23,534 nt of DNA from a virus. The notes below the pieces were generated by a model, which saw nothing but the letters and a program-made list of their open reading frames with translations, had not been told where the DNA came from and did not search any database. The stretch spans positions 1 to 23,534 of IMG/VR virus record IMGVR_UViG_3300025303_000008; one strand, given 5' to 3'. The first letter of the stretch is position 1. Each line of letters opens with the position of its first letter. The translations under genes were made by a program, and so were the position numbers. Positions 3,075 through 16,508 of the stretch are shown here, piece by piece.

Positions 3075-3089
3075 ATAGGTAAAATCACC

Positions 3090-4844
3090 ATGAAATCTGT
3101 ACGCTTCGCGCTCGCGGCGTTGACGGCGCTTGCCTACTCGTCTGCTGTTTTTGCCCAGCAGTTGCCGTCCCCGGCATTCAACAACCTGACGGTCAACGGC
3201 AATCTCAACCTGCCCTCCAAGTCGGCGAACAACTTCTTCGCCGCCCCGGATGGCAGTTCGGGCGCTCCGACGTTCCGCCCGCTTGTTGTGGGTGACATGC
3301 CGGCTGATATGTCGGCTATCGGTATCACGTCCCTTTCGCAGGCGAAGACGGCCGCTCAGTGGATCACCTATGTTGGCGGCAACGGCATCATTCCCGGTTG
3401 CGTTGGCAATGGGATCGCCGATGATACGACGTGCCTCACGGCGGCGATGACGGCGCGCCCCTTTGGCACTCTCCAGCTCGGCAACGGTATCTATCGCATC
3501 ACCAGCGGGATCACCATTCCGGCAGGCCTGACGGTTCTCGGCAACGGTGGCGGTGGTGGCCAGTACGATTTCACCTGTGATGTCGGTATCCGCGTGGCTG
3601 CCGCTGGCATTAACGCAATCACGATGTCGGCCGGCTCGAAGCTGCTGAACACCTGCATCGACTATGCGACGACGCCGACCAGCAACGCGGCGGTCTTTGC
3701 GGGCGCCAGTGCAAACAGCGTCGTCATTTCCGATGTGCAGATCAACAAGGCGTTTATCGGCATCGACATCACCGGGAGCGGTGGCACGCAGAACGTTGAT
3801 GGCGTCATCCGTCACAACGTCATCACTCCGCGCAACGTCTCCGGCGCGATGGGCATCCGCGTGGGGAACGCCTCGACGGGCGCCAGCACCGTAGACACGC
3901 AGATCCTCGGGAACACCGTTTATTGCTATGACGGTGGCCTTTCCGACGCGATCGGCATGAAGTTCCTCGACAGTGGCGGCTCACTTGTCACGGCTAACGC
4001 CGTCTATGGCTGTGGTGTCGGAACCCAGATCTACCCCGGCGCCAACCAGGCAGCCATCTGGAACTACTTCACCGGGACCGTGGTCGGCGACACCAGCAAG
4101 ACGAATGACCTTTACATCAACACCTTCGCGGCCTCTGCTCAGGTGCGTGGCAATCAGTTCGCTGGTTCGTGGACTTCGAGCGCCGCCGCTGAGGCCGTCT
4201 ACATCGATAACAGCGCAAGCGGTGTCGTCTACGGCAACCACTTCGTCGGCCACCGTGCTTACATCTCCACCAATCAGACCGGGTTCCGCGTTCGTGGCGG
4301 CGCTAAGTTCTCGCTGGACAGCAGCACGGTATGCGCGGGCGCCACCAGCACCGGGACGGCCGTTCTCATTGAGGCCTCGGCCAGCGATAGTGCTGTGCGG
4401 GGCAACTCGATCGGCGTCTGCGATAACGTCGGCGGCGGCACGCTGACCAACGGGATTTCGATCACCCAGAGTTCATCAAACCTTGTTGGCGTCGTCGCCA
4501 ATAACTCGATCATCGGGACGACGAACGCCTTCGTCTACACGCCGACTGGTGGCAATGCGACCTCTGCCATCATCCACGACAATCTGGGCGTTGATAACGC
4601 CGGGGGCGCCGTCACTGGCGGGACGACGATCACCTTGCCGGTGACGAAGTTTGTCGTCGTGAACGGCCCGGCGACCGTGACCACCATAAACGGCGGCTGG
4701 TCATCCAGAGAAGTCACGCTGTCGAACAATGGCACGATCACCTACAACACTGGCGGGAACATCTGCAACGCTCTCTCCGGCGCATCTGGAACCCTGACAA
4801 CCGCCATTTATGACGGTAGCTCTGCCTGCTGGCGCCTCAAATAG
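3090..4844 (+). CDS. Tail spike, pectate-lyase-like beta-helix protein with N-terminal signal peptide
   Basis: A 584-aa protein probably acting as the host-surface recognition or depolymerising spike. Residues 1-22 are a textbook Sec signal: MKSVR, a hydrophobic core (FALAALTALAYSSAV) and a VFA|QQ cleavage site. Residues 23-75 resemble phage fibre N-termini (FNNLTVNGNLNL, then PTFRPLVVGDMP). From about residue 100 to 500 there are repeated short glycine/asparagine/valine-rich strands (GNGIYRITSGITI, NSVVISDVQINKAFIGIDITG, VRGNQFAG and similar) typical of right-handed parallel beta-helices. The C-terminus has threonine/glycine-rich strands ending in SSACWRLK. Catalytic residues cannot be assigned. 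A start codon 15 bases after the previous stop and its location among fibre genes support a virion role. A signal peptide on a tail protein is unusual. Fold is confident; enzyme activity is unproven. Confidence 0.82.
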   Translation: MKSVRFALAALTALAYSSAVFAQQLPSPAFNNLTVNGNLNLPSKSANNFFAAPDGSSGAPTFRPLVVGDMPADMSAIGITSLSQAKTAAQWITYVGGNGIIPGCVGNGIADDTTCLTAAMTARPFGTLQLGNGIYRITSGITIPAGLTVLGNGGGGGQYDFTCDVGIRVAAAGINAITMSAGSKLLNTCIDYATTPTSNAAVFAGASANSVVISDVQINKAFIGIDITGSGGTQNVDGVIRHNVITPRNVSGAMGIRVGNASTGASTVDTQILGNTVYCYDGGLSDAIGMKFLDSGGSLVTANAVYGCGVGTQIYPGANQAAIWNYFTGTVVGDTSKTNDLYINTFAASAQVRGNQFAGSWTSSAAAEAVYIDNSASGVVYGNHFVGHRAYISTNQTGFRVRGGAKFSLDSSTVCAGATSTGTAVLIEASASDSAVRGNSIGVCDNVGGGTLTNGISITQSSSNLVGVVANNSIIGTTNAFVYTPTGGNATSAIIHDNLGVDNAGGAVTGGTTITLPVTKFVVVNGPATVTTINGGWSSREVTLSNNGTITYNTGGNICNALSGASGTLTTAIYDGSSACWRLK

Positions 4845-4876
4845 GAGTTGCGGCGCCAAAACCTCGCTTATAGTGT

Positions 4877-4909
4877 GCACGCCAGTTTCTTTTGGGAGAG
4901 TTGGCGTGC
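4877..4909 (+). promoter_or_regulatory. Inverted repeat overlapping the methyltransferase start codon
   Basis: GCACGCCA at 4877-4884 is the exact reverse complement of TGGCGTGC at 4902-4909, and the flanking T/A pair (4876/4910) makes nine pairs. The 17-base loop carries the purine-rich GGGAGAG ribosome site (4894-4900). The right arm contains the GTG start codon (4906-4908). In the mRNA this would bury the start codon while leaving the ribosome site in the loop. A role in limiting translation of the methyltransferase is inference; the repeat itself is directly visible. Confidence 0.5.
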
Positions 4910-5775
4910 AGGTTGAGGAAATCATCAACAAATACCGAGTGGCAGAAGGATATATCGAGACCCCGGAGGGTTGCTGGACGAACTTCCTCGGCCTTCACAC
5001 CAAGACGGATCTGTTCGTCGGCGGCGAGAAGCATAACGGCGAGTTTGTCCACAGGATGCCGATCCCTGATGATGGCTTCTATGGTGGCGCTTATGAGCAC
5101 GCCACGCTCCTGACGGCGATCGATATCCGCCGAGGCCATCACAAGTTCACGGCTGTAGAGCTTGGCGCTGGCTGGGGACCTTGGATTTCAGCTGCCGGCG
5201 TTGTCTGTGCCCGCGCTGGCTTCCCGAATATTCATCTTGTCGGGGTCGAAGCGGACGCTGGCAAGTATGAGCGCATGCGGGAGCATATGCGGATTAACGG
5301 CGTCGATCGTCGCTGTGATGTCAAGTTGATCCGCGGGGCCGCATGGGAAAGCGACACTACGCTCTCGTTCCCGAAGACAGAGGCGCTCGACTATGGCGGC
5401 TCCCCGACCGAGAGCAAGGGGAACACTGACTATCGCGGCAAGGAATACGAGACCGAGGAAATCCCGGCGTTCTCCTTCCAGACGATCTGCCGGGATCTCG
5501 ACATCATCGATTTTGCTCACTGGGATATCCAGGGTGCAGAGTGGAACGTGGCGCAGAGCTGCAAGGACTTCCTAGACGAGAAGGTCCGCTTCATGTTCAT
5601 CGGCACCCATAGCCGATACATCGAGGGCAATCTGCTGAACATGTTCTTCGAAATGGGTTGGGACGTGATGCACCAATCACCGTGCAGCATGCTCTACGAT
5701 CGCAACAGGGCAAATCTCGTGGCTATGACTGCCCAAGACGGGACGATGGCTCTCCGGAATCCCAAGCTCGCCTGA
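4906..5775 (+). CDS. FkbM-type SAM-dependent methyltransferase
   Basis: A 289-aa protein. The GTG at 4906 is preferred because GGGAGAG lies five bases upstream. An in-frame ATG at 4810 would overlap the spike gene and add a non-conserved leader. The SAM-binding motif is VELGAGWGPW (about residues 84-93), followed by the acidic motif LVGVEAD (about 112-118). An FkbM-like WDIQGAEWNV signature lies at about residues 206-215. FkbM enzymes typically O-methylate sugars or polyketides. Placement directly after the tail spike and before the terminator suggests either modification of a host surface glycan (changing phage receptors) or of a virion component. Methyltransferase identity is strong; substrate is inference. 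It is not essential-looking and may be a lysogenic-conversion or moron gene. Confidence 0.85.
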   Translation: MQVEEIINKYRVAEGYIETPEGCWTNFLGLHTKTDLFVGGEKHNGEFVHRMPIPDDGFYGGAYEHATLLTAIDIRRGHHKFTAVELGAGWGPWISAAGVVCARAGFPNIHLVGVEADAGKYERMREHMRINGVDRRCDVKLIRGAAWESDTTLSFPKTEALDYGGSPTESKGNTDYRGKEYETEEIPAFSFQTICRDLDIIDFAHWDIQGAEWNVAQSCKDFLDEKVRFMFIGTHSRYIEGNLLNMFFEMGWDVMHQSPCSMLYDRNRANLVAMTAQDGTMALRNPKLA

Positions 5776-5807
5776 CCAGGCCTCAAGTACAACAGACGCA
5801 CTCTCAG

Positions 5808-5833
5808 CCCCGCCATCGAGCGGGGTTTTTCTT
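5808..5833 (+). terminator. Rho-independent terminator after the tail/methyltransferase genes
   Basis: CCCCGC (5808-5813) pairs with GCGGGG (5820-5825) around a six-base loop and is followed immediately by TTTTTCTTT. It lies 32 bases after the methyltransferase stop and 22 bases before the endolysin start. It would end or attenuate transcripts of the tail genes before the lysis cassette. Confidence 0.85.
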
Positions 5834-5854
5834 TGCCATCATCAAAGGTGAACC

Positions 5855-6613
5855 ATGAACAGAGCCGCGTTCTACGCAGCACTGCGCCGACGCACGTCTG
5901 GCGTATTCGGAACTAGCTTGTCCACGAAGCAGGTTGCTGGCATCGAAGCCATCATCGATGAAGCCGAACGGCGCGGCACGAGCCTCTTTCACCTAGCGGC
6001 CATCCTTTCGGAAGCGTATCACGAGACGGGCGGCCAGATGGAGCCTGTCAAGGAAACCGTCTACGCCAGCAGCAAGGACCGGAATCCTTCTGACGCAACG
6101 GTTATCGCTCGCCTCGATGCTGCGTTTGCTAAGGGGAAGTTGCCTTGGGTGTCGAAGCCCTATTGGCGCTCGGGATGGTTCGGCCGAGGACTTATCCAGC
6201 TCACCCACGAGGCCAACTACGACAAGTTCGGGGTGACGAAGGAATCTGCCCTCGACCTCAAGACCTCGGTGCGGGTCATGTTCGACGGCATGTCAAAGGG
6301 CCTGTTCACCGGCAAGAAGCTGTCTGATTACGATTATCTCGTGACCAAGACGCCGGCAGTGCCAGGCTTCCGATATTACGCCTCCCGCGCCATCGTGAAC
6401 GGCGACACAGCCGCGAACGGGGCGAAGATCGAGGAATACGCCAAGGCCTTCGAAAGCGCTCTCAGAGAAGCCGGTTACAGGCAAACCGCGCCCATCCCCA
6501 CTCCCAAGCCTGAACAGCCCGTCAATCCGGAGCCGCAGCCGGCGCCAAGCAAAGGCGGATTCGCAAGGCTTCTCGAAATCATCCTCAACATCATCGCGAA
6601 ATGGAGAGCCTGA
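5855..6613 (+). CDS. Endolysin, glycoside hydrolase family 19 (chitinase-like muramidase)
   Basis: A 252-aa peptidoglycan-degrading enzyme for host lysis. Residues 45-60 (FHLAAILSEAYHETGG) hold the GH19 helix with the catalytic glutamate in HETGG (E57). GRGLIQLTHEANY (110-122) is the second family signature. AIVNGD lies near residue 180. There is no N-terminal signal peptide. After a proline-rich linker (about 208-232) there is a C-terminal amphipathic, hydrophobic helix (GFARLLEIILNIIAKWRA) that might associate with the membrane. AAAGGTG precedes the ATG, and the stop overlaps the next start (TGATG). The neighbours are a membrane protein and spanins, the expected lysis order. Known phage GH19 enzymes cleave peptidoglycan glycan strands. 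The call is confident; the role of the terminal helix is inference. Confidence 0.9.
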   Translation: MNRAAFYAALRRRTSGVFGTSLSTKQVAGIEAIIDEAERRGTSLFHLAAILSEAYHETGGQMEPVKETVYASSKDRNPSDATVIARLDAAFAKGKLPWVSKPYWRSGWFGRGLIQLTHEANYDKFGVTKESALDLKTSVRVMFDGMSKGLFTGKKLSDYDYLVTKTPAVPGFRYYASRAIVNGDTAANGAKIEEYAKAFESALREAGYRQTAPIPTPKPEQPVNPEPQPAPSKGGFARLLEIILNIIAKWRA

Positions 6614-6816
6614 TGGCTGCCGTCATTGCCCGCATCATCCTGCGCTATGGGGCCGGGTTCCTCGTCGCAAAGGGATTACTTGCTCCAGAGGCCGGGGCAC
6701 AGCTTTCCACGGACCCGGATATGCAAATGCTTCTGCAGGTAGGAGCGGGCGGTGTGGCCTTTGTGGTATCCGAGGGATGGTATTTCTTCGCTCGCCGGAT
6801 GGGCTGGGCGAAATGA
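6613..6816 (+). CDS. Small membrane protein, candidate holin
   Basis: 67 aa. The ATG at 6613 is preferred over 6601 because GGAGAG lies just before it and the junction with the endolysin is a TGATG overlap. Two hydrophobic stretches (about residues 3-25 and 43-60) are separated by a short acidic turn with LSTDPDM, and a basic RRMGWAK tail follows. This two-helix topology, size and position between endolysin and spanin genes fit a class II-like holin. No specific holin family is recognised. The next gene overlaps its stop by ATGA, suggesting translational coupling. Confidence 0.7.
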   Translation: MAAVIARIILRYGAGFLVAKGLLAPEAGAQLSTDPDMQMLLQVGAGGVAFVVSEGWYFFARRMGWAK

Positions 6817-7118
6817 TCGGTCTTCTCGACATTCCTAAGCTTCTCGCCGCTATGGCGCTTGGCATGGTCGTGGCTGGGCCTATCGCCTACTTCCAAGGCA
6901 AAGCTCACCAGCGCCAGGCTATGGCCGTCGAAACCCTCGAATCCTCCGTCAAGATCCTCCGCAAGAAAGGCGAGATCGATGCGCAAGTCTCTTCTTCTGC
7001 TGCCTCTGATCTGTGTGCCTCTTATGGCCTGCCAATCGACGACGAAAGGGAATGCGTGCGACGGCTTCAAACCGCTGCGGCCGAAACTGGAGACGACGGT
7101 CTACATTCTCCAGAATGA
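6813..7118 (+). CDS. Rz-like inner-membrane spanin (i-spanin)
   Basis: A 101-aa protein starting at the ATGA overlap with the candidate holin. An N-terminal transmembrane segment (about residues 7-27, PKLLAAMALGMVVAGPIAYF) is followed by a helical, charged periplasmic region (KAHQRQAMAVETLESSVKILRKKG) and the short motif LCASYGLPIDDERECVRRL. The architecture matches Rz proteins, which span the periplasm from the inner membrane and fuse the two membranes at the end of lysis. The decisive support is the lipoprotein gene nested in its 3' half in another frame, as in lambda Rz/Rz1. Confidence 0.78.
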   Translation: MIGLLDIPKLLAAMALGMVVAGPIAYFQGKAHQRQAMAVETLESSVKILRKKGEIDAQVSSSAASDLCASYGLPIDDERECVRRLQTAAAETGDDGLHSPE

Positions 7119-7185
7119 TCGCCCCTTTGCGAACGACGTAGCCGCTCACAACCGGCTTCTCCAAACCCTCAAGTGCAACAACTAA
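6979..7185 (+). CDS. Rz1-like outer-membrane lipoprotein spanin (o-spanin)
   Basis: 68 aa, beginning inside the Rz-like gene in a shifted frame (140-base overlap) and ending 67 bases after it. The ATG at 6979 is preceded by AAGGCGAG. The N-terminus is a lipoprotein signal: MRKSLLLLPLICVPLMAC, with a lipobox LMAC, so Cys18 would be lipidated and sent to the outer membrane. The mature part is short (50 aa) and ends in TLKCNN. In known systems the o-spanin pairs with Rz across the periplasm to disrupt the outer membrane. The overlapping arrangement plus lipobox make the call strong even without sequence family recognition. Confidence 0.82.
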   Translation: MRKSLLLLPLICVPLMACQSTTKGNACDGFKPLRPKLETTVYILQNDRPFANDVAAHNRLLQTLKCNN

Positions 7186-7195
7186 AGGACATCTC

Positions 7196-7525
7196 ATGCG
7201 TTCCATGGAAGAAATCGTAGCAGCCGGTGTAAAATGCCAAGCGGCAATCGATAAGCACCTCACGGCGGCTTATAAAGAGGCTCTGAAGTGCGCGAAGATC
7301 ACCGAGAAAGGTGTGGCTGCCGGGATGGTGTCGAAGGCCATCGCCGCCAAGACGATCATTGCAGACGCACGATCGATCCCAGGTCAGATTGCACTGGTTG
7401 CCGCGGCGGCTGCTCGCTTGCATGCTGAACAGACCCGTATTTGCCAAATGAACGGGGTTGATACCCCGGCTCCGGCATCAGTAGGCGGCGTTGAGATCAG
7501 TCCCATGGGCGGCGGAGGGCGATAG
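7196..7525 (+). CDS. Unknown alanine-rich phage protein
   Basis: A 109-aa protein with AAAGGAC seven bases before the ATG. It follows the spanin gene after ten bases and precedes a membrane-protein gene. Residues 1-85 are predicted helical and alanine/lysine-rich (for example AAGVKCQAAIDKHLTAAYKEALKC and KAIAAKTIIADA). The C-terminus is a flexible proline/glycine tail ending GGGGR. Cysteines occur at about residues 14, 32 and 82. No signal peptide or recognised domain is present. Location suggests a lysis-region accessory or a late minor protein; function is unknown. Confidence 0.7.
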   Translation: MRSMEEIVAAGVKCQAAIDKHLTAAYKEALKCAKITEKGVAAGMVSKAIAAKTIIADARSIPGQIALVAAAAARLHAEQTRICQMNGVDTPAPASVGGVEISPMGGGGR

Positions 7526-7528
7526 CCT

Positions 7529-8014
7529 ATGAACCAATACGAAGTGGCTCTCCTCATTAGCGCGATGGTAGCCGCATTCCTTGCCCGGGGTCTCCCTCGG
7601 GCTTGGCTCTGGATCGCTATCGGCGCCCTGTCATTCGTCGTTTCAGCCACATGGTGGCGGCTTGGGATGCCGTATCACCCAGCTGCGACACTCGCCTGTG
7701 ATGCCATGGTTTGCCTGGCCGTTTACTCTTTGGCCCGGGAAGAATTCGAGATCTGGATCTTTAATTTGTTCCGCTTGTCCGTCCTAGTCAGCCTCCTGAA
7801 ACTTTTTGGCGTAATTCAGGAGAATTGGATATACGCAGCAGCCTTGGAGTGTGTTAACTTCGCTGCGTTACTACTGCTGGGTGGTACTGGAATCTTGGCG
7901 GGGACTGCCAATGGAGGTCATACTTTCGGCTCTTGGTTTGGCAGTCTTCGTAGGGTTGGGGTGTCTTTGCGTTCGTCTAGAAAAACGCCTCCGTGGTTCT
8001 CGGTTCCGAGATAG
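7529..8014 (+). CDS. Multi-pass membrane protein of unknown function
   Basis: A 161-aa protein with GGAGGGCG upstream of its ATG. Four hydrophobic segments are visible: about residues 4-20, 26-43, 53-70 and 80-130 (the last long enough for two helices, with a charged break at QENW). A basic, serine-rich C-terminal tail follows (GSLRRVGVSLRSSRKTPP). No domain is recognised. Being next to the lysis cassette it might be an additional holin or holin regulator, or a superinfection-exclusion protein; these are inferences. The tail overlaps nothing and the next gene begins six bases later. Confidence 0.65.
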   Translation: MNQYEVALLISAMVAAFLARGLPRAWLWIAIGALSFVVSATWWRLGMPYHPAATLACDAMVCLAVYSLAREEFEIWIFNLFRLSVLVSLLKLFGVIQENWIYAAALECVNFAALLLLGGTGILAGTANGGHTFGSWFGSLRRVGVSLRSSRKTPPWFSVPR

Positions 8015-8019
8015 CCGAG

Positions 8020-8295
8020 ATGGAAGATAACCTCATTGCAAAGATCGTCGGCGTCCTTTCGGGCGCTTTCTTGTCTCTCTCGTACGACCCACCGCGCTCT
8101 AGGGCTGGATTCTTGCGGCGGGGCGCTTCCAGCATTCTGTTCGGCTGGGTCTTCGGCGAGCCCACCCTTATCTTTCTAGATTGGAAGACTGATTACAACA
8201 GCACGGTGGCAGCCTTCTGCCTGGCGTCTATGGCCTCATGGTCGGCGATCGGCGTGCTTAAAAGAGTGGTCGAGGCGTATAAGAGAGAAGGCTAA
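8020..8295 (+). CDS. Small membrane protein of unknown function
   Basis: 91 aa. The ATG at 8020 is chosen over an in-frame GTG at 7993 that would overlap the preceding gene, although no strong ribosome site is visible for either. Hydrophobic segments lie at about residues 5-21 (IAKIVGVLSGAFLSLSY) and 60-78 (TVAAFCLASMASWSAIGVL), with an arginine-rich loop (PRSRAGFLRRG) and a weaker segment between. It resembles the small two- to three-helix membrane proteins common near rhizobial prophage lysis genes. Its stop overlaps the stop of the leftward HNH gene by four bases, marking the end of the rightward late block. Confidence 0.6.
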   Translation: MEDNLIAKIVGVLSGAFLSLSYDPPRSRAGFLRRGASSILFGWVFGEPTLIFLDWKTDYNSTVAAFCLASMASWSAIGVLKRVVEAYKREG

Positions 8296-8897
8296 CGATC
8301 AATCCAAGACCACGATCTGCCCACCTGAATCGAAGAGATATGCGCCTGTTTTACCCCATATCTTTGTGCGGTATCTTCTTGCCTCTCCTTTCCTTTCAAG
8401 GCGATGATTTCTCTCACCTCTTTTTCCGTTAGTTTCGCATTTACGTGTCGTTCCCCTCGCATGTCTGTGCCATGAACAATTCGGTCAGCTTGGTTTTCGG
8501 CAGAAGTTTTCCAAGAGAGGTGCCTTTTCGTTACGCACCCAAGATGCCCATTGCCGCAGGAGTGAGCCGCCTCGTGCTCAGGGGTTGGCGGTGGGCCATT
8601 CTCCTCCTCGCAAGCCATTCTGTGCACTGACTCTAATTTAGAACCGATCATTATCCTTCCATAGCCGGCGCCCGTAGCGTAGGGCCATTTAAGACATTCA
8701 TCGCCATCATATTTCAAGACAACTTCCTTGTAGAATCTCATAGGCTCGCCTTTTGATGGCCTTAAGACCGCGTCAACGGAGCCGTATTTACTCAAACGTG
8801 TCTTGTGCTTTTGGCAATGGATGGTGCTTCCGCTCTTAGTCCAGTGAGCGTTGCCATTGCAGCCTGGAACGGCGCATGCCCTGAATTTATCGGCCAT
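8292..8897 (-). CDS. HNH endonuclease with zinc-ribbon-like N-terminus and C-terminal helix-turn-helix
   Basis: 201 aa, with AAGGAGG before the ATG. Residues 8-31 (C8, C13, C28, H31) could bind a metal. The HNH core runs from VHRMACEE (91-98) through AHSCGNGHLGCVTKRHLSWKT (111-131) to the conserved asparagine of SAENQADR. The C-terminal region (155-201, KLTEKEVREIIAL ... YGVKQAHISSIQVGRSW) looks like a DNA-binding helix-turn-helix as in free-standing homing endonucleases. It shares the core and C-terminal layout with the gene at 9168-9626. Such genes usually move themselves or neighbouring DNA between phages. It is the last gene of the leftward block, beyond the attachment site, and may have its own control through the hairpins over its start. 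Confidence 0.85.
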   Translation of the reverse strand: MADKFRACAVPGCNGNAHWTKSGSTIHCQKHKTRLSKYGSVDAVLRPSKGEPMRFYKEVVLKYDGDECLKWPYATGAGYGRIMIGSKLESVHRMACEEENGPPPTPEHEAAHSCGNGHLGCVTKRHLSWKTSAENQADRIVHGTDMRGERHVNAKLTEKEVREIIALKGKERQEDTAQRYGVKQAHISSIQVGRSWSWIDR

Positions 8898-8935
8898 TGA
8901 ACCTCCTTGCCTTCAGGTTCAATGAACCTGTTGAG
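8890..8935 (-). promoter_or_regulatory. Two mutually exclusive hairpins over the HNH gene start
   Basis: On the leftward transcript, CAGGTTC (from 8930) can pair with GAACCTG around a three-base loop. Alternatively ATTGAACCT (8923-8915) pairs perfectly over nine bases with AGGTTCAAT (8904-8896), with a ten-base loop. The second helix covers part of the AGGAGG ribosome site and the first two bases of the ATG (8897-8895). The two helices share the same ATTGAACCT strand, so only one can form. This is the layout of a translational on/off switch. The pairing is seen directly; regulation is inference. Confidence 0.45.
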
Positions 8936-8940
8936 AAATA

Positions 8941-8965
8941 CGTAAACGCGGCCACTAGGACCGCG
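8941..8965 (-). terminator. Weak possible terminator downstream of the attachment site
   Basis: On the leftward strand CGCGG (8965-8961) and CCGCG (8951-8947) can form a five-pair stem with inner TCC/GG pairing possible, followed by TTTACGTATTT. The stem is short and the T-run broken, so termination is doubtful. If real it would separate the HNH gene from transcripts of the integrase operon. Confidence 0.25.
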
Positions 8966-8993
8966 CAACGTCTTGATAAACAAGGAAGAAGGA

Positions 8994-9038
8994 TGGTGGG
9001 CGTGACAAGGATCGAACTTGTGACCCCTACGATGTCAA
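8994..9038 (-). other. attP: attP core: 3' part of a tRNA-Val(GAC) gene
   Basis: Read leftward, this 45-nt segment starts with a valine anticodon loop (TTGACAT, anticodon GAC; 9038-9032). It continues through the 3' anticodon strand CGTAG, a five-base variable loop and a perfect T-arm (ACAAG / CTTGT around TTCGATC), to the acceptor strand CACGCCC, discriminator A and CCA. The 5' half is absent: no D-arm and no matching acceptor or anticodon 5' strand follows beyond 9038. Tyrosine integrases often use such tRNA 3' fragments as the attP core, restoring the host tRNA on insertion. The integrase gene is about 650 bases away. Phage genes on both sides indicate attP rather than attL/attR. Confidence 0.82.
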
Positions 9039-9167
9039 CATTCTTCTCCCAGGTGAAACCACTGTATATCCGGGAAAGGAGCACTACACAATTCGCTGTT
9101 TCAGGCATCGGAATCATGTTTCGTTCTTATTCACAGGTTCGGCCGTGCCATGGAGCACTTCGCATTT

Positions 9168-9626
9168 CTACATCACGTCCTGATACGAGTGCCTAAGTAT
9201 TATCTTTCTGACAGAACCGTGCGTGATCGGGAAGTCCCGTGAGATAGAAGAAAGACTTTCTCCTTCACTGCCCCTCCTGCGTATTTCGCGTACGTCACCA
9301 TCGCTCAGCTTCCTTGCAGGACCCCTGCTATACGTGCCGTGCATGCGCTTGTCCTGCTCGTTCTCGCTTGGGGTCTTCCATGAGAGGTGGCGTTTGTTCA
9401 CGCACGCCCTAACGCCGCACTGATGCGAGGCGTGGTGTTTACTTGTTGGGGGCTTTCCATGCCTCATCTCGCAGATGCGCCTATGCGGCTTGTAAAAACC
9501 AACTGCATCCTGCGCTTGTGGGTATCCTCTCCGGTCAAGAGAGAAGGGCCATATAACGCATTCATCGGTTTCTTGTGAGAATGCTTCTGCAACGAATTTT
9601 GTAGTTGCGCCTCTAAGTACGCTCAT
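9168..9626 (-). CDS. HNH endonuclease (paralogue of the 8292-8897 gene)
   Basis: 152 aa. The ATG at 9626 is preferred, with GGAGAGG about eleven bases upstream; a TTG at 9668 would extend it by 14 residues. The core contains ECVIWPF (22-28), PHRR (47-50), SHQCGVRACVNKRHLSWKT (67-85) and SENEQDKRMHGT with the family asparagine. The C-terminus (106-148, KLSDGDVREIRRRG ... ITHGSVRKIILRHSY) is helix-turn-helix-like. The core KRHLSWKT and flanks match the other HNH gene, but this copy lacks the N-terminal metal-binding segment. It sits between the integrase and its attachment core, an unusual place because int normally abuts attP. It is probably a mobile free-standing endonuclease. Confidence 0.83.
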   Translation of the reverse strand: MSVLRGATTKFVAEAFSQETDECVIWPFSLDRRGYPQAQDAVGFYKPHRRICEMRHGKPPTSKHHASHQCGVRACVNKRHLSWKTPSENEQDKRMHGTYSRGPARKLSDGDVREIRRRGSEGESLSSISRDFPITHGSVRKIILRHSYQDVM

Positions 9627-9689
9627 TCGGTTTCTCGCCTCTCCGTTATGGCGCTCAGACTGTACCAAATGAACTACGTAAAGGGAATC

Positions 9690-10673
9690 CTAGAACGTCA
9701 GTGACGACGCGAGATTTCGCAGGTAATTCGGGCTGAACCGCGCATAGACCTTTTCGGTGATTTTCGTATTGCTGTGCCCGAGAAATTGGGCAATCTCTGA
9801 CATGCTGTGGCCGTCCTCGGCCATCCATACCGCCGCCGAGTGCCTGAGCACATGTGGCGAGACTTCCGGCAGCCCTGCTGCCTTCCCTGCGGCCTTCAGA
9901 CCCTTCTTAATCGACTTCACGCGATTGCCAGCCCATTCGATGACGAATGGCGACATGGCACCCTTCTTCGCGTCCAGCAGATCCTTCCGTAGCTGATCAT
10001 TCATCGGCACGGCGGCGCGTCCCTTCCTCCTGACGCGATCGAACGGATTCCGCAGGTTGATAATCCCCCTTTCGAAATCTACCCTATCCCATGTCAGCTC
10101 AAGAGCCGCGGTGCTCCGGGCCCCTGTGGCGATCAAAAGACGTATCGCCAGTGAGATATGAGGGACGTTCGCGCATGAACGCAGCCTGGCAGCCTCTTTC
10201 CTCGTAAGGTGATATTCCTTCGGGTCTGGCTTTGGCGGGCGCTCGATATGGGGCGCCTTGGTGATAAGGCCGTTATTCTCAGACCATTTCAGCACCATGC
10301 GAAGGTGGCCTAGCTCTGTGTGGATGGTCCCATCCTTAATGCCGGCGCTTCTGCGCTCTTCTGTATGGGCGCGGCAATCAGCTATCGAGACGGCAGAGCC
10401 TTCCAATCGCCCAAACCTTGGCTCAAGAGCCTTCCATGTGTGCTTCATGGTGCCGATGACAGCCAATCCCGTCTTATCGAGAACGTAGCTATCCCATAGG
10501 GCCTTAACGGTCGTTCCTACTGGACGCGTGAGTTCCGCGTATCTAGCCGGGGCGCGGCGGGACGCCTCCTGAGCGTCCGAGGTGCCAAGTCGATAACGTC
10601 TGCGGACTCCATCTTTGTCGTCCCAGGTGATACAGAACTCTCCTCGGAGTCTGGTAATCCGCCATTCTGGCAT
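9690..10673 (-). CDS. int: Tyrosine recombinase, phage integrase
   Basis: A 327-aa site-specific recombinase that would join attP to a host tRNA-Val gene. The ATG at 10673 is chosen for its GGAGAG site; the longer open frame only reads through the excisionase gene. Residues 1-45 are a basic arm-type domain (WRITRLRGEFCITW ... RRRYRLGT). Residues 50-140 form a SAM-like core-binding domain. The catalytic set is R186 (TGARSTAALELTW), H274-x-x-R277 (SPHVLRH), H300 (FLGH) and Y310 (KVYARF), with a candidate lysine at about 218. All key residues are present. It is the distal part of the leftward early operon, as int is in lambda, with the attachment core lying beyond an inserted HNH gene. Confidence 0.93.
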   Translation of the reverse strand: MPEWRITRLRGEFCITWDDKDGVRRRYRLGTSDAQEASRRAPARYAELTRPVGTTVKALWDSYVLDKTGLAVIGTMKHTWKALEPRFGRLEGSAVSIADCRAHTEERRSAGIKDGTIHTELGHLRMVLKWSENNGLITKAPHIERPPKPDPKEYHLTRKEAARLRSCANVPHISLAIRLLIATGARSTAALELTWDRVDFERGIINLRNPFDRVRRKGRAAVPMNDQLRKDLLDAKKGAMSPFVIEWAGNRVKSIKKGLKAAGKAAGLPEVSPHVLRHSAAVWMAEDGHSMSEIAQFLGHSNTKITEKVYARFSPNYLRNLASSLTF

Positions 10674-10828
10674 TCGAAACTCTCCACGTCTTCTTTTCGG
10701 ATTCTCAGCAGCTTGCCGCCAAGGCGGAACGAAGGCAATTCGCCCGATGATATCAGGTTGCGGACATGTCGTTCCGAACATTCCCAACGTTCCGCCAGTT
10801 TCGACGGTGTGAAAACAGATGTCGTCAT
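10517..10828 (-). CDS. Excisionase-like helix-turn-helix protein
   Basis: A 103-aa protein whose first 50 residues form a winged-helix/MerR-like DNA-binding domain: FTPSKLAERWECSERHVRNLISSGELPSFRLGGKLLRIRKEDVESF. This pattern is typical of the HTH_17/excisionase family, which directs integrase toward excision. The C-terminal half is serine/arginine-rich and is encoded entirely within the first 157 bases of int in another frame, so it may be an unselected tail. The start overlaps the preceding gene by ATGA. Position immediately before int supports an Xis role. It could alternatively regulate int transcription. Confidence 0.75.
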   Translation of the reverse strand: MTTSVFTPSKLAERWECSERHVRNLISSGELPSFRLGGKLLRIRKEDVESFECQNGGLPDSEESSVSPGTTKMESADVIDLAPRTLRRRPAAPRLDTRNSRVQ

Positions 10829-11082
10829 GCCTCAGACACCTCCATGACCTCAAAGGCTTTGCGGATGGCCCATTCGCGTTCGACTTGCGGTCGCATCAGC
10901 ATCCACTGCGGGCTATAAAGCGCGATCGCCGGTATCATTCCGCTTCCAAAATGATTGTCTTTCGATTTCTCAGACGCAGTCATGGTGTCACCATATCCAT
11001 GGCCAACAGTCATATCCGGGTCCGCGCCAATTGCGGCGCAGTACGCACGTGCTATGGCTTCGATCTGTTCATTCGTCAGCAT
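10825..11082 (-). CDS. Unknown small early protein
   Basis: 85 aa from the ATG at 11082, where AAGGAG has ideal spacing; an ATG two codons upstream sits directly against that site. It starts MLTNEQIEAIARAYCAAIGADP, an amphipathic helix, and has a mixed body ending ERE-W-AIRKAFEVMEVSEA. Small proteins beginning with 'eqIeaiAra.c...g.dpd' are common in rhizobial phage early operons and have no known function. Its stop overlaps the excisionase start (ATGA), so the two are probably co-translated. Confidence 0.65.
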   Translation of the reverse strand: MLTNEQIEAIARAYCAAIGADPDMTVGHGYGDTMTASEKSKDNHFGSGMIPAIALYSPQWMLMRPQVEREWAIRKAFEVMEVSEA

Positions 11083-11143
11083 TTTCATCTCCTTGCTTTG
11101 TTGTGCATTCCGACGCTAACCCGCTGTGGGATGAGGGGTGAGG

Positions 11144-11383
11144 TCATGGCACTCTCCTGACGCGGCGCCATTCCGCCAGAGCGCCTTCAATGTCGTAGCC
11201 AAACCGCTCGTACATATCCTGAATGTCAGCGTCCCAAGGGACACAAGCCTTGATTCCGTGGTGAATACCGTACCTCTGCCCGCAGTCGGGGCAGCCGATA
11301 TGCTCGGCCGCGCCGAACCGATTGATAACGTCAAGGCGCTTGTGCCAGCCAAGGCGGCAACGGATTTTGGTGATCAGCTTCAT
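11144..11383 (-). CDS. Small CxxC protein, unknown
   Basis: 79 aa. The ATG at 11383 has AGGAGG upstream and overlaps the previous stop by ATGA. The first part, MKLITKIRCRLGWHKRLDVI, is followed by IGCPDCGQRYGIHHG with a C-x-x-C pair (C30, C33) and nearby histidines, resembling a single zinc-knuckle half-site. The C-terminus is helical and arginine-rich (YDIEGALAEWRRVRRVP). This recalls short zinc-ribbon-like phage proteins but no exact family can be named. Possible roles are nucleic-acid binding or host-protein interaction; both are guesses. Confidence 0.65.
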   Translation of the reverse strand: MKLITKIRCRLGWHKRLDVINRFGAAEHIGCPDCGQRYGIHHGIKACVPWDADIQDMYERFGYDIEGALAEWRRVRRVP

Positions 11384-11640
11384 TCCCCCGCCTCCTTTCT
11401 TCCCTGCCGGAGGGCGTTGGTGGTGACAAACTGACGTGCCGGCGCGTGCTGGATGAAGCCGTGTTCGTCTAGAAATACGCACAGGAGCGTTTCGCCAGAT
11501 TGGTTGTATCCGAATGCGTCTCTGTGCTTGCCGAAGATGAAGGCGACGACGATACATTCGGTTTCGTAGTGCGACGGTTCGGAGAAGCCAGACGGCTTTC
11601 TCCACGTGCACTTCATGGGGAGCGTTCCGTGTTCAGCCAT
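11380..11640 (-). CDS. Unknown early protein
   Basis: 86 aa. The ATG lies after GGAGCAGAGCA, and the frame overlaps the upstream gene end by eight bases. The sequence is beta-rich in the middle (ETECIVVAFIFGKHRDAFGYNQSGETLLCVFLDEHGFIQHAPARQFVTT) with a polar N-terminus containing TLPMKCTWRKPSG. No signal peptide, membrane segment or recognised domain is present. The compact operon position and natural-looking composition support coding. Confidence 0.62.
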   Translation of the reverse strand: MAEHGTLPMKCTWRKPSGFSEPSHYETECIVVAFIFGKHRDAFGYNQSGETLLCVFLDEHGFIQHAPARQFVTTNALRQGRKEAGE

Positions 11641-12106
11641 TGCTCTGCTCCTGTCGCGTTTCAGAATGAGTCTGGGCCTTGGCTCCCCAAGTACGATCGA
11701 TGAATGAGATCAGCGCGTGGGCGTCTTCCATCGACCAAGTTTCACCGAAGGCCGCGTAGCAGACGCGATCTTTGTGCTTGGCTTCGGTCCACGGCATGTT
11801 CGACTGATCCCAGCCGGCCCATTTCGATAGGCCCTCAGGCTGGCGGCGTGCTTCGGCCAGCTCGCGCTCAAGCTTCTCGATGCGGTCGGCGGCTTCACCC
11901 ATGATGCGCATGTCAGCCCCGGTGCATTTATCCGGCCCCTCCTGTGCGTCATCCCCCTGCGCGGCGAGGGCGGCGAGCCAAATACTTTGACCGCATATAC
12001 AGCGGAACACGAATTCGTCATGGAGAAGCGCGCCTATTGGATTGCGAAATTCAAGCGCGGCGTGAATGAGGATTTTACGGGCGGTCCATCTCCTCATCCT
12101 CCTCAT
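11633..12106 (-). CDS. Unknown early protein with central coiled-coil
   Basis: 157 aa from the ATG at 12106, with GGAGAC upstream and an ATGA overlap with the preceding stop. A second in-frame ATG three codons later follows GAGGAGG and could be used. The basic N-terminus (MRRMRRWTARKILIHAALEF) is followed by a CICGQ segment, then a heptad-like coiled coil (about residues 67-90, GEAADRIEKLERELAEARRQ). The tryptophan-rich C-terminal part contains TEAKHKDRVCYAAFGETWSMEDAHALISFIDRTW. The coiled coil plus basic head suggests an oligomeric nucleic-acid or membrane-proximal protein. No family is recognised. Confidence 0.6.
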   Translation of the reverse strand: MRRMRRWTARKILIHAALEFRNPIGALLHDEFVFRCICGQSIWLAALAAQGDDAQEGPDKCTGADMRIMGEAADRIEKLERELAEARRQPEGLSKWAGWDQSNMPWTEAKHKDRVCYAAFGETWSMEDAHALISFIDRTWGAKAQTHSETRQEQSNG

Positions 12107-12918
12107 CTTTTTGTCTCCACAGAAATGCGGGCCATAGGATCTAGAAGAGCGCATAGAGCGTTCCAAGTGTCAGCCGCATCTTGTTGAACGGAAATCTCAA
12201 TTCCTTCGTGATGGCCTACAGCAGACCATGCCCGGCCGATATGATCCCGCATCGTGGCCCACTCTCCATCCGCCTCTGTCTTGGTGGTCGATAGGGCGTG
12301 GGAAGCTGCCTGCGACTCTGCAAGCTCATCTGCTGGGATGAGGGCAGACATGATGCGATAACCGTAGTCGTTCTGCGCTGATGCTTTGGCGGCTTCAAGA
12401 GAAGACCACGTCTTGCTGATGCCGAGATCCGTTCGCCAATACTCCATATCGCGCGTATCGAGGATGATGATATATTCGCCGAAAGCGTGTTTTGCTTTCC
12501 ATCGCGGCGCGCTTCGATCTCTATCGTGATAATCTACCCATTCCAATTCCCCCACGCCCACCGGTGCGACAATGGAGGGGGAGGCGAGCGCCGCTCTTGC
12601 CGCTTGAATGTCAGAGTGGCGGATGGAATAAGCCCCCGCGTTTCCATGCGGTTTTGCTGGTATTTCCAAGCGTGCCAACGGCTCAAGAGCTTGGCGGAGT
12701 TGTTCTGTATAGGCTCGATTGTCGTGGGTTTGTGATGCGAGCCGAGCGAACTTGCGCATCCGTTCACACCAGATGGCATAGTCCTTCGGCGTCATGTACT
12801 TGCGATTGTCCCAGTCGCATTCGCGGGCAAGCGCTTCGACTTGATCGTCTGTTCCGATAGGCCTCGACGCCAACGCCTCCACGGCGGCGACTTTCATTTC
12901 GTCGGTGATGTCGGTCAT
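12103..12918 (-). CDS. Unknown 271-aa early protein (Ea22-like layout)
   Basis: Starts at an ATG after AAGGATCGCTGAC and overlaps both neighbours by four bases. The N-terminus (MTDITDEMKVAAVEALASRP) and a middle listing helical segments (EQLRQALEPLARLEI, SDIQAARAALA) are typical of rapidly varying early phage proteins. A central domain contains GVGELEWVDYHDRDRSAPRWKAKHAFGEYIIILDTRDMEYWRTDLG and SLEAAKASAQNDYGYRI, a beta-strand/helix module seen at the ends of many rhizobial phage proteins. A third helical part follows. No catalytic motif is visible. It may be a mosaic of modules; function unknown. Confidence 0.65.
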   Translation of the reverse strand: MTDITDEMKVAAVEALASRPIGTDDQVEALARECDWDNRKYMTPKDYAIWCERMRKFARLASQTHDNRAYTEQLRQALEPLARLEIPAKPHGNAGAYSIRHSDIQAARAALASPSIVAPVGVGELEWVDYHDRDRSAPRWKAKHAFGEYIIILDTRDMEYWRTDLGISKTWSSLEAAKASAQNDYGYRIMSALIPADELAESQAASHALSTTKTEADGEWATMRDHIGRAWSAVGHHEGIEISVQQDAADTWNALCALLDPMARISVETKR

Positions 12919-13334
12919 GTCAGCGATCCTTCGGCCTTGGAGAACGTGCGAACGGTCACGACCTTTTCCTCTTCGGTGCAGGTCAGATCGTAGGCGCTAT
13001 CCATCCACTCGATTGCTTCAGGCTCGCCGTGCTTTCCGCCTCCGTACCAATAGGTCCAGCCGACCCAAGAACCGTCAGGGAGCTTTGCCGCGACGGCTTT
13101 GGATTCGTAGTGCCGAGACCAGTCGCACTTGAGACCGGTTTCGAATTCACCTTCGCGGACTTCGCTTTGTGCGTCCCAATGCTCGTCTGCATCGACAAGG
13201 CCTTGATACGCGTCGTCGATCTCTTCACCGGTCAAATCGGCCAACGGCGCAACCTCGCCGTCGTTGAACCTGGCATGGACGCCAAGAACGAGATACTTCA
13301 CCTTCTGCTCTGCGGTATGTTTCGTCTCGCTCAC
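12915..13334 (-). CDS. Unknown acidic early protein
   Basis: 139 aa from the GTG at 13334, supported by TAGGAG about seven bases upstream; a longer frame to 13382 has no ribosome site and an atypical leader. It is strongly acidic overall, with EEIDDAYQGLVDADEHWDAQSEVREGEFE in the middle and an aromatic strand segment SWVGWTYWYGGGKHGEPEAIEWMDSAYDL. No signal peptide or membrane helix. The fold could be a small alpha/beta protein. Acidic phage early proteins sometimes mimic DNA, but nothing here proves that. The stop overlaps the next start by ATGA. Confidence 0.6.
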   Translation of the reverse strand: MSETKHTAEQKVKYLVLGVHARFNDGEVAPLADLTGEEIDDAYQGLVDADEHWDAQSEVREGEFETGLKCDWSRHYESKAVAAKLPDGSWVGWTYWYGGGKHGEPEAIEWMDSAYDLTCTEEEKVVTVRTFSKAEGSLT

Positions 13335-13362
13335 TGTACTGCTCCTATGGGAATGAAGGGGG

Positions 13363-13767
13363 TCAACGGCCCTTGCGTGCATCGATGCGCGCCTGATTGA
13401 TCACTGCGGTTGCAAAATGAACGGCGTCGTCGCCCATGTCCGAAAAGAGGCCGTGAATGGTCAGGGCCAGGACGTGAGGATTGATGCCAGCCGCTTTCCA
13501 GAACTGCTCTTCGTTGCCCGAGTGCTGGCGGCTGTGTTCATCTGCGTGGAGCGGCAAAGCCCAACGATCCGGCGCCTTGCTGCCTTTTCCCCGGCCGTAA
13601 TGTCCGTATCGAGGCGCGGCATAAGACAGGTGCGCAGCCTGGACCGGTGACTTCCCGGAAACGACGCAAGGAAGCTCATGGATGAAGGACAGATAGTCCT
13701 TGTTCTTGGTCGGCTTCCTGTTCGGGAAGGTGTATGACTGCTGCGGCGCGACACGAAAACCACCCAT
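13363..13767 (-). CDS. DUF968/HNH-like phage nuclease
   Basis: 134 aa. The ATG at 13767 overlaps the upstream stop as TGATG. Key features are CVVSGKSPVQAAHLSY (34-49), a glycine/lysine stretch with KAPDRWALPLHADEHSRQH (64-82) and NEEQFWKAAGINP (85-97). Conserved H46, H74, H78 and H82 plus the FW and following helix match the HNH-type metal site of the DUF968 and Ref-like phage proteins, which act in DNA recombination. Placement in one operon with NinB, SSB and ERF agrees with a recombination or Holliday-structure-processing job. Enzyme activity is inferred from the motif pattern. Confidence 0.72.
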   Translation of the reverse strand: MGGFRVAPQQSYTFPNRKPTKNKDYLSFIHELPCVVSGKSPVQAAHLSYAAPRYGHYGRGKGSKAPDRWALPLHADEHSRQHSGNEEQFWKAAGINPHVLALTIHGLFSDMGDDAVHFATAVINQARIDARKGR

Positions 13768-13958
13768 CACGCACGCCCCGTCCAACGGCGGATATGCTTC
13801 ACAACGGCCAGCGGATGCGGCAACTGAGGCTCGGAAGGCTTGCGAAGTTCTTCCTTCCGCTCGGCGCGTTTCACCTGCCACAGGGCATTCCCGATCCGCG
13901 TATTCGGGTGGCGCTCGCAGATTGTTTCGAGCAACTTGATCTTCTGGGAATCGTTCAT
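13767..13958 (-). CDS. Small helical early protein, unknown
   Basis: 63 aa with GAGAGGTGCAGC upstream of the ATG. Both ends overlap neighbouring genes (ATGA with the NinB-like stop, TGATG with the next start). The first 25 residues, MNDSQKIKLLETICERHPNTRIGNA, look like a small helix-turn-helix-like pair, followed by a basic helix (LWQVKRAERKEELRKPS) and a basic tail (VVKHIRRWTGRA). It is basic and might bind DNA or a recombination partner. No family is recognised. Confidence 0.62.
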   Translation of the reverse strand: MNDSQKIKLLETICERHPNTRIGNALWQVKRAERKEELRKPSEPQLPHPLAVVKHIRRWTGRA

Positions 13959-14386
13959 GCTGCACCTCTCATGGGGTCGATAAAACCTTGGCGCTCGGCC
14001 TGGTGAAGCTCGACGCCGTTTTGCATGCAGAAGGCCAGGGTGTATTCAATGAGCGAGGCAGCGCGGCGCGTTGTCATTCGCGCGCTGCTTTCACGAATGG
14101 CGACAAACTCGCCTTCAAGGCCGGGGATAACTTCGCCCCCCGCTTTCGTTGCCACTCCATGACCGCTGATAAGCAGGGATTTCCACTCATCCGGCGTTCT
14201 GGTCTTCCCGGCCCACTTGACAGGCGACCTGGCAAGATCGGCCACGATGGCGTGAAACTTTGCGTTCTGGTCATTGGTCCGCTTCGGCTCCGATACGGAC
14301 ACAGAGAAGCCTTCAGGCGCCGACTGGACAGCCTTCAGAGCATTGTTGCGAACCCGGTCATTGATGAGGACGAAGCGCGAGGCCAT
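13955..14386 (-). CDS. ninB: NinB family recombination protein
   Basis: 143 aa. The ATG at 14386 is chosen for GGAGTG upstream; a GTG four codons earlier is possible. The family signature runs through KRTNDQNAKFHAIVADLARSPVKWAGKTRTPDEWKSLLISGH and the C-terminal REDS/S-type helix-strand region ESSARMTTRRAASLIEYTLAFCMQNGV. NinB (lambda Orf) binds single-stranded DNA and SSB and helps load annealing proteins. It lies in an operon with SSB and ERF, the partners it is known to work with. Length is typical for the family. Confidence 0.88.
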   Translation of the reverse strand: MASRFVLINDRVRNNALKAVQSAPEGFSVSVSEPKRTNDQNAKFHAIVADLARSPVKWAGKTRTPDEWKSLLISGHGVATKAGGEVIPGLEGEFVAIRESSARMTTRRAASLIEYTLAFCMQNGVELHQAERQGFIDPMRGAA

Positions 14387-14388
14387 GG

Positions 14389-14646
14389 CTATTCCCACTC
14401 CATGACGTACTTCTTGGCATCTTCCTTAGTCATGGGTTCGCCTGACCAATCGTTGACGATTTCACCATCAACAGCGTCTATCAGTTCGCAAAGAGCCTGT
14501 TTTTGCGCATCGGTGTCATGTTGAGCCATACAGCTCATGCTGACTTCCCCGCCCTCTACGTACTTACGCAGAGCTGCCATGCTGGCATCGCTTTCAAGGT
14601 CCCATCCTTTGAGCGTGCCCCACTTCAGAGTAAGATGCTCGCTCAT
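14389..14646 (-). CDS. Small acidic conserved-looking early protein
   Basis: 85 aa from the ATG at 14646, which follows GGAGGGG at good spacing; an ATG five codons upstream lacks one. The protein begins MSEHLTLKWGTLKGWDLESD, then has helices around AALRKYVEGG and KQALCELIDAVDGEIVNDWSGEPMTKEDAKKYVMEW. It is acidic and cytoplasmic. It lies between ssb and ninB with two-base gaps, so it is surely co-expressed with them and may modulate recombination. The family's biochemical function is not known to me. Confidence 0.68.
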   Translation of the reverse strand: MSEHLTLKWGTLKGWDLESDASMAALRKYVEGGEVSMSCMAQHDTDAQKQALCELIDAVDGEIVNDWSGEPMTKEDAKKYVMEWE

Positions 14647-14648
14647 GG

Positions 14649-15128
14649 TCAACCCCTCCATTCAGGGGCAAACGGAATATCGTCGTCCATGTCGCGGGCA
14701 TACGATCCACCGCGCGCCGGCTCATCCTGGCTGTCGTAACCTGTCTGTTCACGCTCTGGCTTTGCGGACTTCTCACCGCTCGGGCCATCCAGCATGATCA
14801 GCTTGGCGTCGAAGCCCTGCAAAACGAGTTCGGTCGAATATCGGTCATTGCCCGAAGTGTCCTGCCACTTCCTCGTAGCAATCTTGCCCTGAAGCAGAAC
14901 ATGGCTGCCCTTCTTCAGGTATTGCTCTGCGACCTTGCAGAGGCCTTCGGAGAAGATCACAACGGAAAACCATTCGGTCTTTTCCTTGCGTTCTCCGCTG
15001 TTGCGGTCTCGCCAAGTCTCGGCGCTGGCGACCCGCAAGTTTACGATCGGCGCGCCGTCCTGCTTTCTACGAACTTCAGGGTCAGCGCCGAGACGGCCGG
15101 TGATCGTGCATTGGTTAAGGTCGCTCAA
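14649..15128 (-). CDS. ssb: Single-stranded DNA-binding protein
   Basis: 159 aa. The start is a TTG at 15128: GGAGG lies at ideal distance and the protein then begins (M)SDLNQCTITGRLGADPEVRR, the usual SSB N-terminus. An ATG at 15140 has no ribosome site. The OB-fold spans about residues 1-108, including RDRNSGERKEKTEWFSVVIF, LKKGSHVLLQGKIATRKWQD and YSTELVLQGFDAKLIML. A disordered tail ends DDDIPFAPEWRG; DDDIPF is the canonical partner-binding tip, here followed by six extra residues. It protects ssDNA during phage recombination/replication and pairs with the upstream ERF protein. Confidence 0.9.
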   Translation of the reverse strand: MSDLNQCTITGRLGADPEVRRKQDGAPIVNLRVASAETWRDRNSGERKEKTEWFSVVIFSEGLCKVAEQYLKKGSHVLLQGKIATRKWQDTSGNDRYSTELVLQGFDAKLIMLDGPSGEKSAKPEREQTGYDSQDEPARGGSYARDMDDDIPFAPEWRG

Positions 15129-15129
15129 A

Positions 15130-15900
15130 TCAGCCTCCATTAAGCGGATGAAGCGAAAGAAGTCGGTCTTCGTGCCGGCGATACTTAGCCGCCAGCTCGT
15201 CGTAAGGAACCTTCTTCTCAAGGATCGCTTCTAGGTCGGTGAAAATATTGGTGAGATCGTCCACGTCCTTCGCAGCAGTCATTTGCTGCTCGGCTAGATC
15301 GAGACGGTTGAACTCAACGCGCTCCTTGGCGGCGGTGTAGTAGGACTCCGGCCAGATACCTTTGCGCTGCTCTATCTTCTCGGCCCAGTTATCCAGGCGT
15401 TTGAATGTCGTGCAGGAATCAATATCCTTTTGGATCTCTGCCCAGTTAATTTCCGTCTTTGCTTGGCTGGCGGACAGCTTGACCTTGGCACCTTCGCCCA
15501 CAGGGGCAGAGTCCGCGCCGTCCGTATCATCAACCGCGGCGACCCCGATAAGGGACGTGAGCGCATAGCGGCGCGCATAGGTCATTGCCGAGCCCATAGC
15601 CTGATGGTTGCCATTGAGGCTGCAAACGGGGTACTCGCTCTCCATGCTCTCGCCGGATGAATGAGCAAGGCGCGTGATGAGGATGATTGAACCGTCTCGA
15701 ATGGTCGTCGGCTGAGTGATTGCTAGGCCGTGCTTGGAAAGAACCGGCATCACCGCTTCGAGGACATCGCCAATATCGGCGTACATGTACTTGTACTTGC
15801 CAGTGTCAGCCGTCTTCGTCTTCTCAGGGTTCTTCAGCTCCCCCTGCGCCGCAGCAAGGGCTGCGAACAGATTGTCGTGAGTGATAACTTGCGCTTCCAT
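15130..15900 (-). CDS. erf: ERF-family single-strand annealing protein
   Basis: 256 aa, with GCAGGAGC upstream of the ATG. The N-terminal ERF domain covers about residues 1-130: an early helix FAALAAAQGELKNPEKTKT, KYKYMYADIGDVLEAVMPVLSKHGLAITQ, and the motif NGNHQAMGSAMTYARRYALTSLIGVAAVDDTDG. The C-terminal half is helical and charged and probably mediates oligomer or partner contacts. ERF proteins anneal complementary ssDNA, allowing phage circularisation and recombination. The gene precedes ssb and ninB, the classic module. The stop overlaps the ribosome site of ssb, suggesting coupled translation. Confidence 0.9.
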   Translation of the reverse strand: MEAQVITHDNLFAALAAAQGELKNPEKTKTADTGKYKYMYADIGDVLEAVMPVLSKHGLAITQPTTIRDGSIILITRLAHSSGESMESEYPVCSLNGNHQAMGSAMTYARRYALTSLIGVAAVDDTDGADSAPVGEGAKVKLSASQAKTEINWAEIQKDIDSCTTFKRLDNWAEKIEQRKGIWPESYYTAAKERVEFNRLDLAEQQMTAAKDVDDLTNIFTDLEAILEKKVPYDELAAKYRRHEDRLLSLHPLNGG

Positions 15901-16481: not shown

Positions 16482-16508
16482 GTTAGTGGTCCTTGGGTTG
16501 TGGGGAGG

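Follow-up and report, generated by a model that had tools for sequence, protein, structure and literature searches.

Integrated elements reside most commonly in tRNA genes, yet little is understood of how integrases switch between tRNAs. In lambda, the arm-type and the core-type sequences recognized during integration are unrelated to each other. Phage HP1 uses an anticodon-loop site in a tRNA gene (that for tRNA-Leu), with the stem serving as core half-sites. The rhizobial tyrosine integrase IntS of ICEMlSymR7A (Mesorhizobium) acts with several arm motifs flanking the core (arm consensus TGKTGGTATC) and with a helix-turn-helix directionality factor (PMC11963761). For the tRNA attB sites of mycobacteriophages, cores of 30–45 bp comprising the 3′ half rebuild the tRNA, and attP may lie in inverted orientation with respect to the genome (PMC10865867).

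The window analysed here, an entire, linear IMG/VR record of 23,534 bases, contains, by comparison with its relatives, the attP of a temperate phage of rhizobia, the target of which is a tRNA-Val(GAC) gene (Table 1). Positions 8994–9039, read on the minus strand (GTTGACATCGTAGGGGTCACAAGTTCGATCCTTGTCACGCCCACCA), are a 46-nt 3′ fragment of tRNA-Val(GAC); the fragment lacks the 5′ half, ARAGORN called no tRNA in the 23,534 bases, and an Rfam search of the window gave no meaningful match. Complete tRNA-Val(gac) genes in five other sequences (L008, L011, L013, L016, and L200) end in the identical 46 nt, an agreement judged to be far beyond chance. One of these, L013, is attL: it is 100% identical to window positions 1–9039, after which the tRNA is completed, and ARAGORN found an intact tRNA-Val(gac) at this place, that is, the tRNA is rebuilt. 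Another contig, L007, is attR: it is 100% identical to positions 8993–18022 and then continues into different DNA that matches a rhizobial genome (G076; 89% over 995 nt). At locus L200 of this genome (attB), nothing interrupts the complete tRNA-Val(gac) gene, its left flank having 53 nt also present in L013 and its right flank opening with ∼46 nt also present in L007.

Table 1. Features of the window around the attachment site.
Feature	Position	Strand	Remarks
Endolysin gene	5855–6613	+	phrog_181
Paralogous HNH-like gene, P′ side	8292–8897	−	phrog_59; 40% identity over 117 residues to the 9168–9668 gene
Dyad AGGTTCATTGAACCT beside P′	8915–8929	−	Sole perfect copy in window; same place in relatives
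Arm element P′, CGTATTTCTC, other side of core	8933–8942	−	
G+C-rich hairpin	8947–8965	−	Read by eye from the sequence
attP core, 3′ part of tRNA-Val(GAC)	8993–9039	−	47 bp common to attL (L013) and attR (L007); empty attB, L200
Arm element P2, TGTAGTGCTC, then TTTCCCGG	9079–9088	−	Kept in 18 relatives
Degenerate GGTTC/GAACC dyad beside P1	9135–9149	−	
Arm element P1, CGAAGTGCTC (CGTAGTGCTC in the close relative L041)	9153–9162	−	
HNH endonuclease-like gene between int and P1	9168–9668	−	PF13392
int, tyrosine integrase, 327 aa	9690–10673	−	Pfam PF00589, phrog_1; likely ATG at 10673
xis-like HTH_17 protein gene	10517–10828	−	PF12728, E 8.9e-11

Because the partial matches of L007 and L013 overlap by exactly positions 8993–9039, the core is 47 bp long (the 46-nt fragment plus a shared T at 8993), extending from one base before the anticodon loop (a G of the stem) to CCA and one further base. 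The attachment site is thus proved, at the level of sequence, by the complete quartet of attP, attB, attL, and attR. As the left end of the core lies one base before the loop, integration is at the anticodon-loop position, where the predicted crossover is placed by the boundary of identity. Recombination with the host tRNA-Val(GAC) gene splits the 47-bp core common to attP and attB, and an intact tRNA is rebuilt at attL. The features of tRNA-dependent lysogeny were not found: the 47-bp core rebuilds the tRNA, and ARAGORN detected no tRNA gene in the window. The original prediction, made from the letters alone, had proposed a tRNA-Val(GAC) 3′ fragment without its 5′ half, an integrase gene ∼650 bases away (the stop of int, at 9690, is 650 nt off), lysis and tail genes on the far side (an endolysin and tail-fibre genes are found there), and a tRNA-Val(GAC) target with a boundary at the anticodon loop; all of this agrees with the data, with the correction that identity starts one base 5′ of the loop and runs one past CCA. 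The comparison it had suggested, of the core with tRNA-Val genes and with prophages bearing attL or attR, yielded the three partner sites. Host genes beyond the 8.9-kb side, which it had named as a counterargument, do occur in L007, but as attR of the same phage in its integrated state, that is, as the expected partner. The same core without the 5′ half was also observed in Sinorhizobium and Rhizobium isolates (L002–L006), which are ruled out as hosts of the present phage, their best integrases being only 29–32% identical; given this distant relationship, unrelated elements share the tRNA-Val(GAC) site.

To the left of the core, the plus strand encodes tail-fibre, endolysin, and unknown phage genes; to the right lie int, the helix-turn-helix gene, and genes for NinB, Erf, SSB, a CI-like regulator, a methyltransferase, and a replication protein. 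Because attP is intact and has phage genes on both sides, the molecule is not a single simple prophage; the arrangement would fit the unsplit form, be it an excised circle, virion DNA, or tandem copies. A free or circular genome, a phage-plasmid, or tandem phages had been proposed before; these options were well chosen, and a linear fragment without end repeats is compatible with each. No end repeats were present in the 23.5-kb record, which is itself a fragment: L013 runs 3.3 kb past its left end, and the contigs of many relatives measure ∼38–52 kb. The plasmid form was set aside, only three plasmid integrases having been found, all of them distant. The window is one metagenomic contig, and a 47-bp repeat is short enough for an assembler to bridge, so that two prophage ends could have been joined artificially and no attP molecule have existed. 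This is very improbable, however: in a second, different contig (L041/L014), the core is flanked on either side by phage DNA, many relatives carry int mid-contig with phage genes on either side, and a false join would require both ends to be present in the same sample.

Alignment of relatives revealed the invariant catalytic residues of int (R186, K217, H274, R277, H300, and Y310), and its structure model (pLDDT 86.7) comprises three domains: an N-terminal three-stranded sheet with a helix (residues 4–49; strands E4-9, E12-18, and E24-28), a helical core-binding part (56–133), and a catalytic part (158–324). As modeled, the N-terminal part is a classical arm-binding domain, which may read the dyad beside the arm elements. 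For the catalytic domain, the nearest solved structures with phage names are 1aih (HP1) as well as 5c6k and 5dor, which we take to be P2 integrase. The xis-like open reading frame, in the +1 frame, and the start of int share 157 nt. Among the 76 relatives with an overlap found (within L040–L119), 75 use the same frame and have an overlap of 112–178 nt; across these sequences, the overlap is unusually long and conserved.

Relatives with integrases of 43–100% identity were collected in two scans with alignments; 21 of the 395 rhizobial genomes surveyed carry one. In almost all cases, what lies closest to the 3′ end of int is a tRNA 3′ fragment that starts at the anticodon loop and derives from tRNA-Val (GAC, TAC, or CAC) or, in more distant members, from tRNA-Thr(GGT), tRNA-Met(CAT), or tRNA-Arg(CCT). 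Mapped onto trees, the tRNA loop changed at least 8 times among 49 members and 12 times in the larger set. Relative to int, the attP cassette points either way, its orientation having changed at least 6 times on the 49-member tree and at least 10 times in the larger set; it is inverted in L059, L061–L064, L067–L073, L087, L090, L094, L103, L104, and L112, and also in L213, L225, L229, L230, and L232. In the inverted class, int adjoins the rebuilt tRNA (5/5 "−" isolates have the complete tRNA at the int end); in the other class, int is at the far end, and nearly all "+" isolates have a partial tRNA at the int end. Five members (L099, L102, L116, L133, and L198) carry a complete tRNA-Val beside int and a second anticodon-loop-like core, which in L116 reads TTCACAC and has flanking inverted repeats; going by this layout, they possibly represent tRNA-dependent lysogeny or a phage-borne tRNA.

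Around the core, P1 and P2 on one side and P′ on the other are direct repeats of a 10-bp element (consensus NNNAG-TGCTC), and the dyad AGGTTCR..YGAACCT comes after P1 as well as after P′. This layout is retained in relatives, the non-coding DNA of which has otherwise much diverged (alignment A3). The repeat GGAGCACT had earlier been proposed as possibly arm-type, and both of its copies (P2 and P1) indeed proved to be part of the conserved arm element: of the three GAGCACT copies in the window (9079, 9153, and 17872), the first two are conserved sites in relatives.

The first five letters of the element are identical or nearly identical to the anticodon stem (3′ strand) of the tRNA targeted by the respective phage. 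In the first set, the phage's own stem was held exactly at 34 of 45 sites versus 15 by permutation. The prediction that arms and stems covary was written down before 18 new sites from more distant integrases were scanned; at these (nine stems), the own stem matched at 4.17 of 5 letters and other stems at 3.17, and 0 of 20,000 permutations gave a value as high. Over all 65 sites and 12 stems, the mean best match was 4.57/5 for the own stem versus 3.37/5 for other stems (p < 5e-5), an effect that persisted with one site per distinct stem, and a third set of 17 isolate (host-genome) sites again behaved alike (4.41 versus 3.33). Covariation was limited to the 3′ anticodon stem in direct orientation (z 7.9); the loop, the variable loop, the T stem, the acceptor, and the reverse complement of the stem did not covary with the arms. 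In 18 aligned P arms, the middle letter agreed with the stem at P1 in all 18 cases and at P2 in 16, the P1 letter being T for 10/10 CGTAG targets and A for 8/8 CGAAG targets. tRNAs with a GAC anticodon and a CGAAG stem (L049, L055, L066, and L221) go with arms carrying GAAG; thus, the arms follow the stem rather than the isoacceptor or codon. Altogether, 52 of 56 sites agreed. The four that disagreed include the window's own P1, which lies beside the inserted HNH gene; the near-identical L041, which is without this gene, has CGTAG at P1.

Such agreement might also arise if the arms were of the ordinary lambda type, that is, if an N-terminal arm-binding domain read the NNNAGTGCTC repeats while int, arms, and core were inherited and exchanged as one module. 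The lambda-like three-domain plan, with its N-terminal β-sheet domain, is in keeping with this explanation, and since related integrases have arms as well as targets in common, kinship alone gives an association. Supported contrasts are few: the best integrase tree has eight stem changes, and in a phylogeny-corrected test of the A/T letter, 4/4 pairs on well-supported branches agreed, a number of contrasts that cannot reach p 0.05. However, close relatives that differ in the stem differ in their arms at the same letter, rare stems (GGGAG, TGAAG, TGGAG, and CGGTC) recur in the arms of their own phages, and covariation is absent for the other tRNA segments that are inherited along with the module. 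Arms of the lambda type are independent of the core sequence, whereas here the arm letters track the core stem. Ordinary lambda-type arms are therefore regarded as unlikely, though by no means far-fetched.

What the elements correspond to is suggested by the host site. Read outward from the crossover, the left half-site of the host (GAGCACTACG, bordering TTGACAT) yields CGTAGTGCTC, which is the complete element to the letter; the right half-site read likewise yields CGTAGGGGTC. The left half-site consists of the D-stem and the 5′ strand of the anticodon stem and has no counterpart in the core of attP itself, the own left half of which (ending in GAAGAATG) is degenerate. The five letters following the stem fit the D-stem complement YGCTC better (3.73/5) than the own right half (2.17/5). 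Nearly all tRNAs have GAGC in the D-stem, so that the TGCTC portion of the match is beyond the reach of covariation. Because of the outward match of CGTAGTGCTC and the degenerate left half of attP, the repeats are read as spare core-type half-sites. A rhizobial temperate-phage attP with stem-tracking repeats of this nature, presumably bound by the integrase, is the best explanation of the sequence data, and we consider it probable. Loaded onto the P1, P2, and P′ repeats beside the weak core half, the integrase would build up the recombination complex; the N-terminal domain or the excisionase would recognize the dyad, which does not depend on the tRNA; and a phage switching its tRNA would have to change arms and core together. 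Alternatively to half-site binding, the N-terminal domain could have evolved the same specificity. The stronger proposition, that attP is built of several direct copies of the host-tRNA half-site, that core and arm belong to a single class of site, and that each change of target requires the arms to be rewritten, has in our view an even chance of being correct. If true, tRNA stem, arm letters, and integrase residues would be connected by a code that could be read off and applied to the prediction of insertion sites.

The arms loosely resemble pieces of tRNA (the stem, then GGTTC at about the distance of the T loop), and might accordingly be functionless fossils of older tRNA fragments, left by past target switches or duplications. 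It is highly improbable that they are, since the three elements keep fixed places across integrases of 43–100% identity, match the present target and not a past one, and do not track the letters of the T stem. Copies of the whole tRNA 3′ half, considered because of the same GGTTC, were likewise rejected, as letters of the T stem, variable loop, and acceptor do not covary. The stem-reading residue was sought by mutual information between int columns and the target stem. The columns differing most between CGTAG and CGAAG targets are residues 71, 74, 86, 103, and 112 (numbered from 10673), all in the core-binding region; they are candidate specificity residues partly confounded with the isoacceptor, and as stem-reading residues they were retained as a lead only, 86 and 103 following the isoacceptor.

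The hairpin between P′ and the core is a possible terminator replacing that of the host tRNA gene in the lysogen. Of 41 phage P′ flanks, 9 have hairpins at this location, versus 1.7 of the shuffled flanks, the window's own P′ not being among the nine; replacement of the host's terminator in all members was thus dismissed as a general rule. L041, L044, L076, L083, L085, and L183 have a terminator-like hairpin just past the core on the phage side, and in some members the hairpin resembles the host tRNA terminator to be replaced. The HNH gene between int and P1 is absent from L041/L021, the int of which is 99% identical. HNH open reading frames between int and P1 were also observed in L051 and L128, and a GIY-YIG-like one in L088 (by eye); from these cases, endonuclease genes seem to insert repeatedly at this position.

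An attP in a tRNA gene is ordinary; arms that copy the half-site of the target and follow its switches, as the alignments suggest, are unusual. In the literature covered, largely that outside subscription journals, arm sites resembling core or tRNA were not found described, an absence which amounts to weak evidence. For the present integrase family, the textbook division into core-type and arm-type sites is called into question. As the family switched between tRNAs for Val, Met, Thr, and Arg, with matching marks in the arms, the rule of recognition is testable, and the set of four att sites is a ready substrate for recombination assays.

The system shares with lambda and HK022 the three-domain tyrosine integrase, the excisionase gene adjoining int, and an attP with flanking arms and a short core. 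It differs from them in that the target is a tRNA anticodon loop, in that the arm repeats carry core half-site sequence, and in that xis and int overlap by 157 nt rather than by the short stretch seen in lambda and HK022. From HP1 and P2 it differs in the arm sequences, and HP1 targets tRNA-Leu instead of tRNA-Val. ICEMlSymR7A is the best-studied rhizobial counterpart, but its TGKTGGTATC arms are unlike those described here. The mycobacteriophages Omega and Gaia have an inverted attP and tRNA-dependent lysogeny, whereas here the tRNA is rebuilt; compared with the mycobacteriophages, orientation flipped at least 10 times within a single integrase family, and the arms covary with the tRNA. The closest named phages by integrase are Synechococcus phage Sc-Yong805-1 (47%) and Podoviridae sp. 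ct2G2228 (39%). Like the present phage, both have a tRNA-Val core beside int, and their arms carry GAAG; unlike it, both use the TAC isoacceptor, and attP is inverted in Sc-Yong805-1.
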